In this document: piece after piece, positions 51,589-55,535 of the stretch | How positions within the stretch are numbered: the stretch's first letter is position 1 | How the letters are laid out: every line of letters begins with the position of its first letter | Origin: Pseudodesulfovibrio pelocollis | GTDB taxonomy: Bacteria > Desulfobacterota > Desulfovibrionia > Desulfovibrionales > Desulfovibrionaceae | Length of the DNA stretch: 64,000 nucleotides | Direction: 5' to 3' | Assembly (NCBI RefSeq): GCF_030282845.1 | Contig: NZ_JASTWE010000001.1 | Span: forward strand, 1-64,000 | Notes under the pieces: model-generated | The model's input: the letters and a program-made list of their open reading frames with translations, nothing else | What the model was told of the DNA's origin: nothing | Databases searched by the model: none | Position numbers and translations under genes: made by a program

Positions 51589-53196
51589 TCAGCACAGGCC
51601 GTCCCAGCAGAGGTCGAGGTGTTTGCTCTCCATGCGTCGGGTGGCCAGGCTGACGCCCACGGCCAGGGCCATGGACACGGGCAGGGCGACCACATTGGGG
51701 TCCACCCACTGCATCAACCACAGCCACGAGCCCTGTTCGCCGCCAGCGGCCAGGGAAGACTGGCCGGTCAGGGCCTGGCACAGGCCGATGGCCGCCGACT
51801 CCTGAAGATGGACAAAGAGCAGCCAGAACATGGAGGCCGCGAACCCGCCGACCATGGAGACCTTGGCCGCAATCTTGGTCATGCCCTTCCAGTACAGGCC
51901 GAGCAGGTAGATGGGCAGGAACGAGGCCGCGCAAAGGCCGAAGAAGAAGGCCGTGGCCCGGGCGATGATGTTGCCCGGCAGCACCCAGGCCCAGACCAGG
52001 GTGGCAAAGACCGCGATGATCACGCCCAGTTGGTTCAGCTTCATCGACGAGCCCCCGTTGCCGATGCTCACGTGCTGCTCGAGGAAGTCGCGGGCCAGGG
52101 ACGTGCCGCTCACATGGTACTGCGAACTCATGGTGGACATGGCCGCCGCGAACATGGCCACCAGGAACAGCCCCGAGAACCAGCCGGGCATGATCCTATC
52201 GATGTACATGGGAATGATCCGGTCGAAGTTGCCGCCCGCCGTGGTGATGGCGATCTCGCCGAACCTCTCGTAAAAGACCACGTTTGACAGGGCGCCGACC
52301 ACAAAGGCCACGCCGGTCAGCAGCAGGATGAAGATGCCGCCGATGGCCACGGCCCGGTTCAGTTCGCGGTCCGAGGGCACGGTCATGTAGCGCACGGCCA
52401 GCTGGGGCTGGGCCAGCACGCCAAGGCCCACGCCGTAGACCAGTGTCGTGTAAATGGTCAGGCCGATGGGTGACTTGATGTCCGGCCCCTGGGTCCAGCC
52501 GTTCATGCCGCCCGCCGTGAGCTTTTCGGGCACCAGGGCGGCCATGTCGGTCAGGGCCTGATGGGCGTCGCCCACCCCGCCGAGCAGGGTGTAGGTGGTG
52601 ACGATGAGGATGAGCATCATCACGGCCATGATGCTGCCCTGGAAGGCATCGGTGTACATGACCGCCCGCAGGCCGCCGGTGACGACGTACATGGCCACTA
52701 GCGCGGTGACCACGAGCAGCCACGCGCCATAGCTGACCATGGGGAAGGCCACTTCGAGCATGCGGCAGATGCCGATGAGCACGGCTGCGGCGTAGACGGG
52801 CATGAACAGGAAGATGAGCACGCCCGAGAACTGCTGGATGAATTTGGAGCGGTAGCGCCTGCCGAGCAGTTCGGGGAAGGTCTGGCAGTTGAGGGCCAGC
52901 CCCATGCGCCGGGTGCGCTTGCCGAACACCACCATGGCCAGGAAGACGCCCACGAAGATGGTCAGGAAGGTCAGCCAGAGCATGGACATGCCGAACATTC
53001 CCGACACGCCGCCAAACCCGATGATGGCCGAGGTGGAGACAAAGGTGGCCCCGTAGGACATGGCCAGCACAAAGGGGCTCATCTGGCGCCCGGCAAGCAT
53101 GTAGTCGGTGGGTTTTCTGGTGACCTTCCACGCCTTGTAGCCAAGATAGAAGATGCCGACGAGGTAGACGAGGATGCCGAGGATCTTGCCTTCCAC
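51589..53196 (-). CDS. Sodium:solute symporter (SSS) family transporter
   Basis: 535 residues with about 13 membrane helices. SSS signatures: YKAWKVTRKPTDYMLAGRQMSPFVLAMSYGATFVST near the N-terminus, VYAAAVLIGICRMLE, YVVTGGLRAVMYTDAFQG and AAMSTMSSQYHVSGTSLARDF. The start is GTG 53196 with GAGGAGG close upstream inside the accessory gene. Relatives carry acetate, proline, pantothenate or other solutes; the substrate is not fixed by sequence. The Phe-rich leader and attenuator upstream suggest a link to phenylalanine or aromatic compounds. Confidence 0.93.
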   Translation of the reverse strand: MEGKILGILVYLVGIFYLGYKAWKVTRKPTDYMLAGRQMSPFVLAMSYGATFVSTSAIIGFGGVSGMFGMSMLWLTFLTIFVGVFLAMVVFGKRTRRMGLALNCQTFPELLGRRYRSKFIQQFSGVLIFLFMPVYAAAVLIGICRMLEVAFPMVSYGAWLLVVTALVAMYVVTGGLRAVMYTDAFQGSIMAVMMLILIVTTYTLLGGVGDAHQALTDMAALVPEKLTAGGMNGWTQGPDIKSPIGLTIYTTLVYGVGLGVLAQPQLAVRYMTVPSDRELNRAVAIGGIFILLLTGVAFVVGALSNVVFYERFGEIAITTAGGNFDRIIPMYIDRIMPGWFSGLFLVAMFAAAMSTMSSQYHVSGTSLARDFLEQHVSIGNGGSSMKLNQLGVIIAVFATLVWAWVLPGNIIARATAFFFGLCAASFLPIYLLGLYWKGMTKIAAKVSMVGGFAASMFWLLFVHLQESAAIGLCQALTGQSSLAAGGEQGSWLWLMQWVDPNVVALPVSMALAVGVSLATRRMESKHLDLCWDGLC

Positions 53197-53343
53197 TTAT
53201 GCATCCTCCTCAGGCACGGCCTTGCCCGGTTCCGCGCCCTTGTTGTTCCAGTTCACAATTCCGTAAACGACGCACAATACCGCCGATCCAATGCTCAGCC
53301 AGAAGGCCAGGGCTATCTCGACGCTGCCAAGTCCCATCATCAT
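53197..53343 (-). CDS. Small membrane protein paired with the symporter
   Basis: 48 residues, MMMGLGSVEI then one membrane helix (about 7-31; LAFWLSIGSAVLCVVYGIV) and a short acidic/basic tail ending EEDA. GAGGAG lies 9 bases before the first ATG. It ends at the base before the symporter GTG start, so the two are made together. Small accessory proteins of this type accompany some SSS symporters; the role (assembly or gating) is not established from sequence. Confidence 0.82.
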   Translation of the reverse strand: MMMGLGSVEIALAFWLSIGSAVLCVVYGIVNWNNKGAEPGKAVPEEDA

Positions 53344-53390
53344 GCCCGATCGCTCCTCGTGTTGCGCGCCCCGGTCCGGTCGGCGGAACC

Positions 53391-53428
53391 ATAAAGAAAA
53401 GGGCCGCCGGCTGTATGCCCGCGGCCCT
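53391..53428 (-). terminator. Candidate attenuator terminator upstream of the symporter operon
   Basis: agggccgc (53400-53407) pairs with gcggccct (53421-53428) with an inner ggc/gcc pairing; TTTTCTTTAT follows on the minus strand. It sits after the Phe-rich leader frame and about 48 bases before the accessory gene, so it would stop that operon's own transcript unless prevented. Confidence 0.7.
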
Positions 53429-53455
53429 CGTTGTGTCTGTAAATCCTTTTAGTGA

Positions 53456-53545
53456 CTACTCGCACACCCCAAGACCGCTGGCGCTTCTAAAAAAGCGAAA
53501 GCCAAAAAAGAAAAAGAAGCCAAAGCGGTTGTGGTGGGAGTTCAT
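53456..53545 (-). CDS. Phenylalanine-rich leader peptide
   Basis: 29 codons from ATG 53545 to TAG. Nine residues are Phe (8, 10-14, 16, 18, 19), including five in a row, and the rest begins MNSHHNRFG and ends SGLGVCE. Such clustering is the hallmark of amino-acid attenuation leaders such as pheL. A terminator follows 28 bases after the stop. Ribosome stalling at Phe codons when charged tRNA-Phe is scarce would allow read-through into the symporter. The ATG is at or next to the predicted transcript start, so translation may be leaderless. The size of the leader RNA (about 150 bases) fits known attenuators. Confidence 0.65.
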   Translation of the reverse strand: MNSHHNRFGFFFFFGFRFFRSASGLGVCE

Positions 53546-53552
53546 GGGCTGG

Positions 53553-53581
53553 TCTCTACACAAAGCAGCCCTCCGTGTCAA
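53553..53581 (-). promoter_or_regulatory. Promoter of the Phe leader/symporter operon
   Basis: Minus strand TTGACA (53581-53576), 17-base spacer, TAGAGA (53558-53553). Predicted start falls at or just before the leader ATG (53545). Confidence 0.5.
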
Positions 53582-53903
53582 GGGCGGATTTCAGTCCAGT
53601 GAGACAATATCATTGCCTTCTTCGTCATGAGGCCCATTACTGTATATAATATTGAGCAGAGGAGGGAGGAGGGCGATGAGGTGGTCCGAAAACGACAAAT
53701 ATGTAGCATGGGCCACCGAATCCTGACCCAATCGACCAGCGCGACAGAGATGAGGCCAGGCCTTAGCCCGCTGGCGCCAAGACGGAACGTCATCGAAACC
53801 CCCTCGCCAGGAGTGAAATTGACAAGATTATCTCTTTATATTTCAAGCAATTAAAACTTTTCTTGACAGCTTTGGTCCAGTTGTGCTTTTGTTGCTCCCC
53901 TTG

Positions 53904-53927
53904 CAATTCAGGTTTTTGCCCGAATTG
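53904..53927. repeat. Inverted repeat upstream of the glutamate synthase operon
   Basis: CAATTC (53904-53909) and GAATTG (53922-53927) flank agg-ttttt-gcc, giving further GG/CC pairing inside. About 80 bases before the start codon; could be an operator or RNA hairpin. Confidence 0.4.
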
Positions 53928-54008
53928 TGAAAAGCCAGAAACGGTGCCGCCGTCATTCGGTGCAAACGATGACTTTTTTGGCAACCAAACGCAAAGAGGA
54001 TACCCGCC

Positions 54009-55535
54009 TTGCTGTTTCAACCCGTCAACAAGAACTACCATGAGTTTTGCATTGATCGCGATCCGGACCTGTGCATCAGCTGCAAGGTCTGTGTGCGTCA
54101 ATGTTCCTACCAGGCCCATTTCTTTGACGAGGCCCGGCAGAAGGTCGTGCACGACAACACCAAGTGCATCGGCTGCCACCGGTGCGAGGCGCTGTGTCCC
54201 ACCGCCGCGTTGAACATACGCAACAAGCCCTCGGATTTCAGGACCAACAAGCTGTGGCGGCCGGTCTTTCTCCAGAACATCTACAAGCAGGCGGACACCG
54301 GCGGCGTGCTGCTGGCGGGCATGGGTTCGCCCGTGGACATTCCGGTCTACTGGGACCGCATGCTCCTCGACGCCAGCCAGGTGACCAACCCGTCCATCGA
54401 CCCCCTACGCGAGCCCATGGAGCTCAAGACCTTCCTCGGGGCCAAGCCCAGGAAGATTTCTGTTGAAAATGACAAAAACGGTAAACCGTCCCTGAAGACG
54501 AAGCTGTCGCCACAGATCGAGCTTGAAGTGCCCATCATGTTCGCGGCCATGAGCTTCGGGGCCATCAATTTCAACTTGCATCAGGCCATGGCCCGGGCGG
54601 CCACGGAAACGGGCGTGGTCTACAACACCGGCGAGGGCGGGCTGCACAAGTCCCTGTACAAGTACGGCAGGAACACCATCGTCCAGGTGGCCTCGGGCCG
54701 CTTCGGCGTCCACCTTGACTACCTCAAGGCGGGTGTCGGCATCGAAATCAAGGTAGGGCAGGGGGCCAAGCCCGGCATTGGCGGCCATCTGCCCGGCGAA
54801 AAGATCAACGACAAGGTCTCGGAGACGCGCATGGTGCCCATCGGGTCCGACGCCATCTCCCCGGCCCCGCATCACGACATCTATTCCATCGAGGACCTGC
54901 TCCAGCTCATCTTCGCCCTCAAGGAGGCCTCGGAGTACAAGGTGCCTGTGGCGGTCAAGATCGCGGCGGTGCACAACGTGGCCGCCATCGCCTCGGGCAT
55001 CGTCCGGGCGGGCGCGGACATCGTGACCATCGACGGCATGCGCGGCGGCACGGGCGCGGCCCCGGCCATGATCCGCGACAACGTGGGCATTCCCATCGAA
55101 CTGGCCCTGGCCCAGGTGGATCAGCGCCTGCGCGACGAAGGCATCCGCAATCAGGCGTCCATCGTGGCCGCGGGCGGTATCCGCTGCTCGGCCGACGTGG
55201 TCAAGGCCATCGCCCTGGGCGCGGACGCCGTGTACATCGGCACCGCCACCCTCATCGCCGTGGGCTGCACCATCTGCGGCCGCTGCTACACGGGCAAGTG
55301 TCCCTGGGGCATCGCCACCAACGATCCCAAGCTCTCCAAGCGGCAAAATCCGGACATCGCGGCCAAGAAGCTCACCAACCTGATCCACGCCTGGGGCCAC
55401 GAGATCGAGGAGATGCTCGGCGGCATGGGGCTCAATTCCATCGAGAGCCTGCGCGGCAACCGTGACAAGCTGCGCGGGGTGGGCCTGTCCGACACCGAAC
55501 TCGACATCCTCGGCATCAAGCACGCCGGGCGCTAG
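54009..55535 (+). CDS. Glutamate synthase, FMN-binding subunit with N-terminal ferredoxin domain (archaeal type)
   Basis: 508 residues. Two [4Fe-4S] ferredoxin motifs (CISCKVCVRQC, about 22-32; CIGCHRCEALCP, about 53-64) precede the FMN/2-oxoglutarate TIM-barrel domain (MFAAMSFGAIN, NTGEGG, GAKPGIGGHLPGEK, IDGMRGGTGAAP). Cys420, 423, 426 and 430 would bind another cluster. It makes glutamate from 2-oxoglutarate and ammonia passed from the glutaminase. The start TTG 54009 has AGAGGA upstream. In this cluster the classical GltB is split into separate proteins. Confidence 0.92.
   Translation: MLFQPVNKNYHEFCIDRDPDLCISCKVCVRQCSYQAHFFDEARQKVVHDNTKCIGCHRCEALCPTAALNIRNKPSDFRTNKLWRPVFLQNIYKQADTGGVLLAGMGSPVDIPVYWDRMLLDASQVTNPSIDPLREPMELKTFLGAKPRKISVENDKNGKPSLKTKLSPQIELEVPIMFAAMSFGAINFNLHQAMARAATETGVVYNTGEGGLHKSLYKYGRNTIVQVASGRFGVHLDYLKAGVGIEIKVGQGAKPGIGGHLPGEKINDKVSETRMVPIGSDAISPAPHHDIYSIEDLLQLIFALKEASEYKVPVAVKIAAVHNVAAIASGIVRAGADIVTIDGMRGGTGAAPAMIRDNVGIPIELALAQVDQRLRDEGIRNQASIVAAGGIRCSADVVKAIALGADAVYIGTATLIAVGCTICGRCYTGKCPWGIATNDPKLSKRQNPDIAAKKLTNLIHAWGHEIEEMLGGMGLNSIESLRGNRDKLRGVGLSDTELDILGIKHAGR

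Follow-up and report, generated by a model that had tools for sequence, protein, structure and literature searches.

A putative phenylalanine attenuator upstream of a symporter operon

A window of 64,000 nucleotides of Pseudodesulfovibrio pelocollis DNA (positions 1 to 64,000 of contig NZ_JASTWE010000001.1) carries on its minus strand a short reading frame rich in phenylalanine (Phe) codons and an intrinsic terminator, followed by the genes of a small accessory protein and of a sodium/solute symporter of the SSS family. Very probably this element acts as a transcription attenuator of the leader-peptide (ribosome-mediated) kind, responding to charged tRNA-Phe and regulating the accessory-protein/symporter operon within an aromatic supply regulon, a reading to which we assign a probability of roughly 0.87. 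Its layout, its conservation, its pairing potential and the codon menus of the related leaders are properties of the sequence itself. The parts of the locus are the following.

53576..53581, minus strand: perfect -35 box TTGACA of the leader promoter, from the sequence
53553..53558, minus strand: weak -10 box TAGAGA (3/6 consensus bases), with a spacing of 17 to the -35 box and then 7 nucleotides to the ATG
53456..53545, minus strand: leader peptide frame with ATG at 53545, 29 codons, nine Phe and stop codon TAG, from the sequence and codon conservation
53489..53524, minus strand: Phe codon block (codons 8-19), proposed ribosome stall site, with Phe kept and synonymous TTT/TTC variation
53515..53529, minus strand: strand 1, with potential pairing partners AGAAGC and GCGGT within 53488-53474
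53471..53482, minus strand: strand 2, codons 22-25 (GCC AGC GGT CTT), the antiterminator half within the frame, able to pair with the terminator 5' arm
53399..53429, minus strand: G+C-rich terminator hairpin, with 5' arm (strand 3) at 53429-53417 and 3' arm (strand 4) at 53411-53399
53391..53398, minus strand: T-rich terminator tail, from the sequence
53197..53343, minus strand: gene of the symporter small accessory protein, 48 codons/48 amino acids (NF045580, 54.9 bits, cut-off 35)
51589..53196, minus strand: gene of the SSS-family sodium/solute symporter, 535 codons/535 amino acids (Pfam SSF, 170.4 bits, cut-off 22.8)

The leader frame reads MNSHHNRFGFFFFFGFRFFRSASGLGVCE, and five of its nine Phe codons are consecutive. 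The intrinsic terminator (53429-53391) stands between this frame and the first structural gene. A consensus scan for promoters and terminators listed neither the leader promoter nor the leader terminator, and within 53100-54100 no match to an Rfam family attained the gathering score, the sole match up to E = 1 being to a snoRNA family (E 0.95).

In the proposed mechanism, the leader frame would start at the 5' end of the mRNA or within about two bases of it. When Phe is short, the ribosome would stall in the Phe block and leave strand 2 free to pair with the terminator 5' arm, so that transcription would continue into the symporter gene. When Phe is ample, the ribosome would reach the stop codon, four codons past strand 2, and would cover strand 2 partly, allowing the terminator to form.

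A preliminary description of this DNA had named the promoter, the 29-codon frame with nine Phe, the terminator, the 48-residue accessory protein and the symporter, all of which lie where it had placed them, and had proposed Phe attenuation in front of a symporter, which is supported by the conserved Phe frame and the alternative fold described below. A probable leaderless start, an antiterminator half lying within the leader codons and the recurrence of the element before other genes go beyond that description.

Occurrence of the leader upstream of symporter genes

Searches at the level of the family, the order and the phylum (288, 297 and 395 genomes), together with one scan of named genomes, yielded 121 places with symporter relatives, 44-100% identical and including the one in the window; 118 of them have 700 nucleotides of upstream DNA. 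Six named relatives show 80-86% identity, five of them assigned to Pseudodesulfovibrio and the sixth to Desulfovibrionaceae. A short frame starting with ATG or GTG and holding at least six Phe within 12 codons is present in this upstream region at 54/118 loci, compared to none of 118 reverse strands, 2/1180 dinucleotide shuffles and 4/2412 other windows of the same loci. With a threshold of at least five Phe, the corresponding numbers are 61/118, 4/118, 26/1180 and 30/2412. The Phe-rich frame upstream of the symporter is not a product of chance.

When the upstream 700 nucleotides were judged locus by locus, an aromatic leader was recognized at 69 of the 83 symporter loci within the order, or at 65/79 after removal of four loci that repeat genomes already counted. 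In Pseudodesulfovibrio, 32 genomes have the symporter (E <= 1e-100) and the leader is present in all 30 with readable upstream DNA; two second symporter copies of this genus, L105 and L106, have none. The 58 symporter leaders comprise 51 of the Phe type and seven rich in tyrosine (Tyr), namely six of the Tyr type and a mixed leader of another family (L109, MNNQVVSSFYFYGYYFFGRYRTAAK).

Codon conservation and exchange of the aromatic codons

Comparison of relatives bore out a conserved Phe frame with a variable remainder. In 22 Pseudodesulfovibrio leaders, 184 of the 195 codons in the Phe columns are TTT (133) or TTC (51), and C occurs in these columns 60 times at the third base and 6 times at the first or second base. 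In other genera the Phe run is retained and most other codons are altered, as in MNTNSPIFFFFSYFIFTSPVAWWCSLA and MFKNLFFFFFSFIFFFFGRLKPAARKGG.

The frame could also be read as the gene of an independently functioning small hydrophobic protein, with an incidental terminator; we regard this as highly unlikely. Good conservation of the frame within Pseudodesulfovibrio, C-terminal end included, would fit such a protein, but the length of the leader and both its termini differ among genera while the aromatic codons persist, the conserved Ala-Cys-Gly codons coincide with the antiterminator half, and the type of aromatic residue changes with the downstream gene.

In six genomes of one genus, two symporter genes lie in tandem, the first with a Phe leader (e.g. 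MNKLTTIIFFAFFGFRGIQACGSVECVRT) and the second with a Tyr leader (MNTINRHMNSYFYAYYGYRVSKTCGSVECA). In a tree obtained by a quick method, the Phe-leader and Tyr-leader tandem symporters form sister clades with SH-aLRT values of 100 and 98. Locus L099, of the same genus, has two Phe leaders. In genome G021, also of this genus, a second tandem symporter (L050, at 7930) lies close behind the first and has no leader of its own, unlike the Phe/Tyr pairs. Symporter positions 294, 295, 298 and 422 (numbering of the protein in the window) split the Phe-leader from the Tyr-leader tandem paralogs and are invariant in 45 other leader-bearing symporters; they are candidates for substrate choice on which no claim rests.

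The Tyr leaders make a merely low-complexity stretch unlikely, because Tyr codons do not form pyrimidine runs. More generally, TTT and TTC are purely pyrimidine codons, and a pyrimidine run that arose by chance or low complexity, or that serves as a protein-binding RNA site, could read as Phe; however, Tyr (TAT/TAC) and tryptophan (Trp, TGG) codons substitute in related elements, the variation lies at third codon positions and the controls hold few Phe-rich frames, which makes this explanation the least credible of those weighed here.

Pairing potential of the leader RNA

The codons at the end of the leader, GCC TGC GG(T), are complementary to the terminator 5' arm GGGCCGCAGGC. The resulting alternative antiterminator fold is kept across genera: in an alignment of 42 leaders drawn from all groups, 90.4% of the cells are paired, compared to 31-43% when the partner is slid, and five pairs show changes on both sides. 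Among 500 shuffles, values as high as the real ones were obtained in 0, 2, 1 and 3 cases on four measures and in 40 on a fifth. Codon shuffling of the individual leaders gave at most 10/200 versions that pair equally well with the terminator arm in 46/55 leaders. Within Pseudodesulfovibrio alone, 97.7% of the antiterminator cells are paired. One base pair of the antiterminator distinguishes the tandem paralogs: all six Phe leaders have G-C there and all six Tyr leaders A-U, an exchange that counts as one event and not six. In the 22 Pseudodesulfovibrio leaders, the terminator is paired in 95.1% of the cells, with 10 cells altered on both sides, and strand 1:2 in 97.9%, with weak covariation.

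Fifty-three leaders were folded with a ribosome mask, leaving out the second copies L054 and L055 (Tyr leaders with miscalled terminators) and L066, L083 and L086 (no terminator call). For the transcript up to strand 3 of the leader in the window, the expected number of antiterminator pairs is 10.3 for the bare RNA, 10.9 when a mask covers the beginning of the Phe block and 0.0 when it lies at the stop codon; the means over the 53 leaders are 8.7, 9.4 and 4.5, respectively. The stalled state exceeds the stop state by more than one pair in 39/53 leaders and the bare state in 10. According to these figures, the switch predicted from the energies would consist in masking of strand 2 at the stop codon more than in a contest with strand 1:2.

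A probable leaderless start

The distance between the end of the TTGACN hexamer and the leader ATG is 29-32 nucleotides in 57/58 leaders. A Shine-Dalgarno-like motif precedes 7/58 leader starts, compared to 37/44 starts of the accessory genes that could be placed by script. The fixed promoter-ATG distance and the rarity of Shine-Dalgarno motifs suggest that the leader frame probably has a leaderless start. Given a usual spacer, transcription would begin at the ATG or one or two bases upstream of it; in the window, this start would lie at about 53546, adjoining the leader ATG. In the enteric examples of such attenuators, the leader peptide starts from a Shine-Dalgarno sequence. Such an enteric-type start is not characteristic of the leaders studied here, and attenuators without one are on record, among them leader peptides of Corynebacterium glutamicum that lack a ribosome binding site, according to the excerpted text of PMC4046766.

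The same element before ADH synthase genes and aro operons

A covariance model built from the 42 leaders matched 262 of the 288 family genomes at E <= 0.01, many of these matches being weak, while the symporter is found in 67/288. Nineteen additional matches were fetched, and in all 19 an ADH synthase-like gene lies downstream of an aromatic leader. Two representative ADH synthases pass TIGR01949, and the gene next after one of them passes a 3-dehydroquinate synthase II model.

The genome of the window has three full-length matches. Besides the symporter leader (E 3.0e-27), these are a Phe-rich leader MTRTTARFFFFSFFYRNACGLGVR before a stand-alone ADH synthase gene (L216, G000:C5:4836-4974, E 1.9e-13) and a Phe/Tyr/Trp leader MNSTTPLANSFTVFYFGYWYSRARGLGRGVL before an aro operon (L217, G000:C48:23065-23239, E 3.6e-9), both outside the window. 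Another six matches (E <= 10) cover part of the model, about the length of the terminator. One partial match, L218 (G000:C34:39098-39137), covers the terminator part only, with no leader seen; on the other strand lies a gene that by inspection resembles a chorismate-binding enzyme of the PabB/TrpE type. The third ADH synthase copy of this genome (L254) has no such leader.

Independently of the model, the 30 ADH synthase loci nearest to the stand-alone protein of the window's own genome were drawn from 99 genomes; an aromatic leader stands ahead of the first ADH synthase gene at 30/30 of them. Codon menus were compared over 49 ADH synthase loci (L198-L215, L217 and L224-L253, 18 of them picked by the model), which hold 44 distinct leaders. 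Trp is present in 21/21 distinct leaders whose ADH synthase gene precedes a 3-dehydroquinate synthase II gene and in 4/23 others. As those four stand before tandem ADH synthase genes, the second of which is followed by 3-dehydroquinate synthase II, they belong to aro operons too, so that Trp occurs in 25/25 aro-operon leaders and in 0/19 leaders of stand-alone ADH synthases. The latter hold 132 Phe and 9 Tyr. Among the symporter leaders, Trp within the densest 12 codons was found in 0/58 (Fisher 2.8e-17 for Trp in aro versus Phe-type symporter leaders, a value for 14-codon windows that ignores relatedness).

Eleven third copies of the ADH synthase gene (L254-L264) include two with Tyr runs, one with a mixed Phe/Tyr leader (L264) and eight without a clear leader. 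The Tyr runs, PYYYYG in L260 (G025) and QYYYSYG in L263 (G009), stand before further ADH synthase copies and suggest Tyr-specific control of an ADH synthase isozyme. The promoter pattern is present for L260 and L264 and was not seen for L263.

In general, then, a leader tends to match the end product of the genes that it may control. An aromatic attenuation regulon of the Desulfovibrionales would use Phe or Tyr codons for symporters, Phe and in a few cases Tyr codons for ADH synthases outside the aro operon, and Phe, Tyr and Trp codons together for the aro operon. We consider it reasonably likely that a single leaderless scaffold with interchangeable cassettes (Phe; Tyr; Phe+Tyr+Trp) runs the aromatic supply of this order, comprising ADH synthase isozymes, the aro operon and sodium symporters, that the cassette of a transporter leader reads out the substrate of the transporter, and that duplicated transporters switch both together.

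The substrate of the symporter

The symporter in the window lies below the cut-offs of all eight NCBIfam models that it matches, including PutP (182.3 bits, cut-off 515.5) and PanF (165.8, cut-off 328.05); for ActP the values are 48.9 and 1099.25, and none of these equivalog cut-offs is reached. As the codon menu follows the product across the regulon, the symporter would most likely import Phe. Among the possible substrates, Phe is favoured by the company of the ADH synthases and by the Phe/Tyr paralogs, with other aromatic or unrelated solutes less likely, and we consider this assignment reasonably likely.

An attenuator that is real and senses Phe could nevertheless control a symporter for another solute, such as a nutrient, an aryl acid or a carbon source, with Phe shortage as a mere signal. 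The nearest NCBIfam models are indeed PutP and PanF, both below cut-off, and some relatives without the leader adjoin genes that by inspection resemble acetyl-CoA synthetase (L111) or CO dehydrogenase (L057). This explanation appears unlikely, as the occurrence of Phe and Tyr leaders on tandem paralogs in six genomes would be difficult to account for if the two transporters did not differ in the corresponding amino acid, and as the remaining inspected targets are ADH synthases of the aromatic pathway.

Operon neighbours were also considered as a clue to the substrate and set aside: those in Pseudodesulfovibrio (dut and a glutamate-synthase-like gene) are uninformative, and those of relatives without a leader are mixed among the matches listed. 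Also by inspection, L056 lies downstream of a phenylacetate-CoA-ligase-like gene, and L133 and L134 lie downstream of a TrpB-like gene; all three are symporter relatives without a leader.

Observations that weigh against Phe attenuation

Several observations weigh against attenuation by Phe as proposed here. First, the leader is not universal. No aromatic leader was found at 14 of the 83 loci within the order (L048, the second tandem copy L050, L052, L053, L056-L061, L105, L106, L108 and L111) or at any of the 35 symporter relatives of the phylum sample (L112-L146). Among the 49 places without a leader, 17 loci were compared with Rfam and gave no match at the gathering score; thus neither a T-box nor any other curated element was detected there.

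Secondly, in the leader of the window, 16/200 codon shuffles pair as well as the real order, and the antiterminator has one mismatch, at codon 23, where AGC replaces the TGC found in 19/22 leaders; as the leader reads GCC AGC GGT, one antiterminator pair is lost. Eight further leaders exceed 10/200 shuffles, two of them through a miscalled terminator. Sliding the partner by -1 equals the real antiterminator in the number of cells changed on both sides (21), covariation of the antiterminator within Pseudodesulfovibrio is not above that of shuffles, and the fold of L110 lacks the antiterminator despite nine matching bases.

Thirdly, the folds do not require strand 1:2, and the antiterminator also forms without a ribosome. 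The full-length RNA at equilibrium folds mainly into the terminator in every ribosome state (means of 11.4-11.9 pairs), so that the choice must be kinetic, i.e. a matter of timing. Finally, Trp codons follow the Phe block, around strand 2, in 11/58 symporter leaders, and prephenate dehydratase is encoded in 19/19 genomes tested. Phe biosynthesis is therefore likely present, and Phe uptake would supplement it.

Comparison with known systems

In the open-access literature, taken as titles and the beginnings of abstracts, we found no aromatic attenuator in Desulfovibrio, no aromatic leader-peptide regulon in the Desulfovibrionales and no amino-acid leader peptide before an SSS symporter, which is weak evidence of absence as the subscription literature lies mostly outside this body of text. 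The terms 'desulfo', 'symporter' and 'phenylalanine' are absent from the main text of a genome-wide attenuator study (PMC2965389).

The symporter of the window belongs to the same SSS family, with the same small partner gene, as the group associated with NF045580. This group carries no assigned substrate, and the protein of the window does not reach the cut-off of any named SSS model that it matches. A transporter group without an assigned substrate would thus gain a testable one from DNA alone, together with the prediction of a Tyr-specific sister. An SSS symporter would join the targets of leader-peptide attenuation, and so would the aromatic pathway in its ADH synthase version, whose synthase isozymes seem to be distinguished by their leader codons. 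The tandem symporters with Phe and Tyr leaders represent a natural experiment, in which the regulatory codon cassette would change with protein function.

The pheA and pheST genes of enteric bacteria are preceded by leader-peptide attenuators, with a Phe-rich peptide, an intrinsic terminator and an alternative antiterminator. The element described here resembles them in these three features and in its position before genes of Phe supply. It differs from them in that the target is a sodium symporter, or elsewhere ADH synthases, in that the leader is probably leaderless, and in that no Rfam family matches it at the gathering score.

In C. glutamicum, a putative aroF leader with Phe-Tyr-Phe and an ilvBNC leader without a ribosome binding site have been described (PMC4046766). 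The likeness lies in the lack of a ribosome binding site and in mixed aromatic codons before a gene of the aromatic pathway. In contrast to the present case, the excerpted text on this member of the Actinobacteria mentions no transporter target, nor does it describe a common scaffold carrying Phe, Tyr and Phe/Tyr/Trp leaders.

Ribosome-mediated attenuation itself is known, including a transporter case: according to the excerpted text of PMC4191407, the BmrB leader of Bacillus subtilis mediates ribosome-dependent attenuation of the operon for the transporter BmrC/BmrD (BmrCD). The BmrB leader answers antibiotics directed against protein synthesis and its target is an ABC multidrug transporter, whereas the leader in the window would answer one amino acid; the two have in common that a transporter operon would be placed under the control of a translating ribosome.

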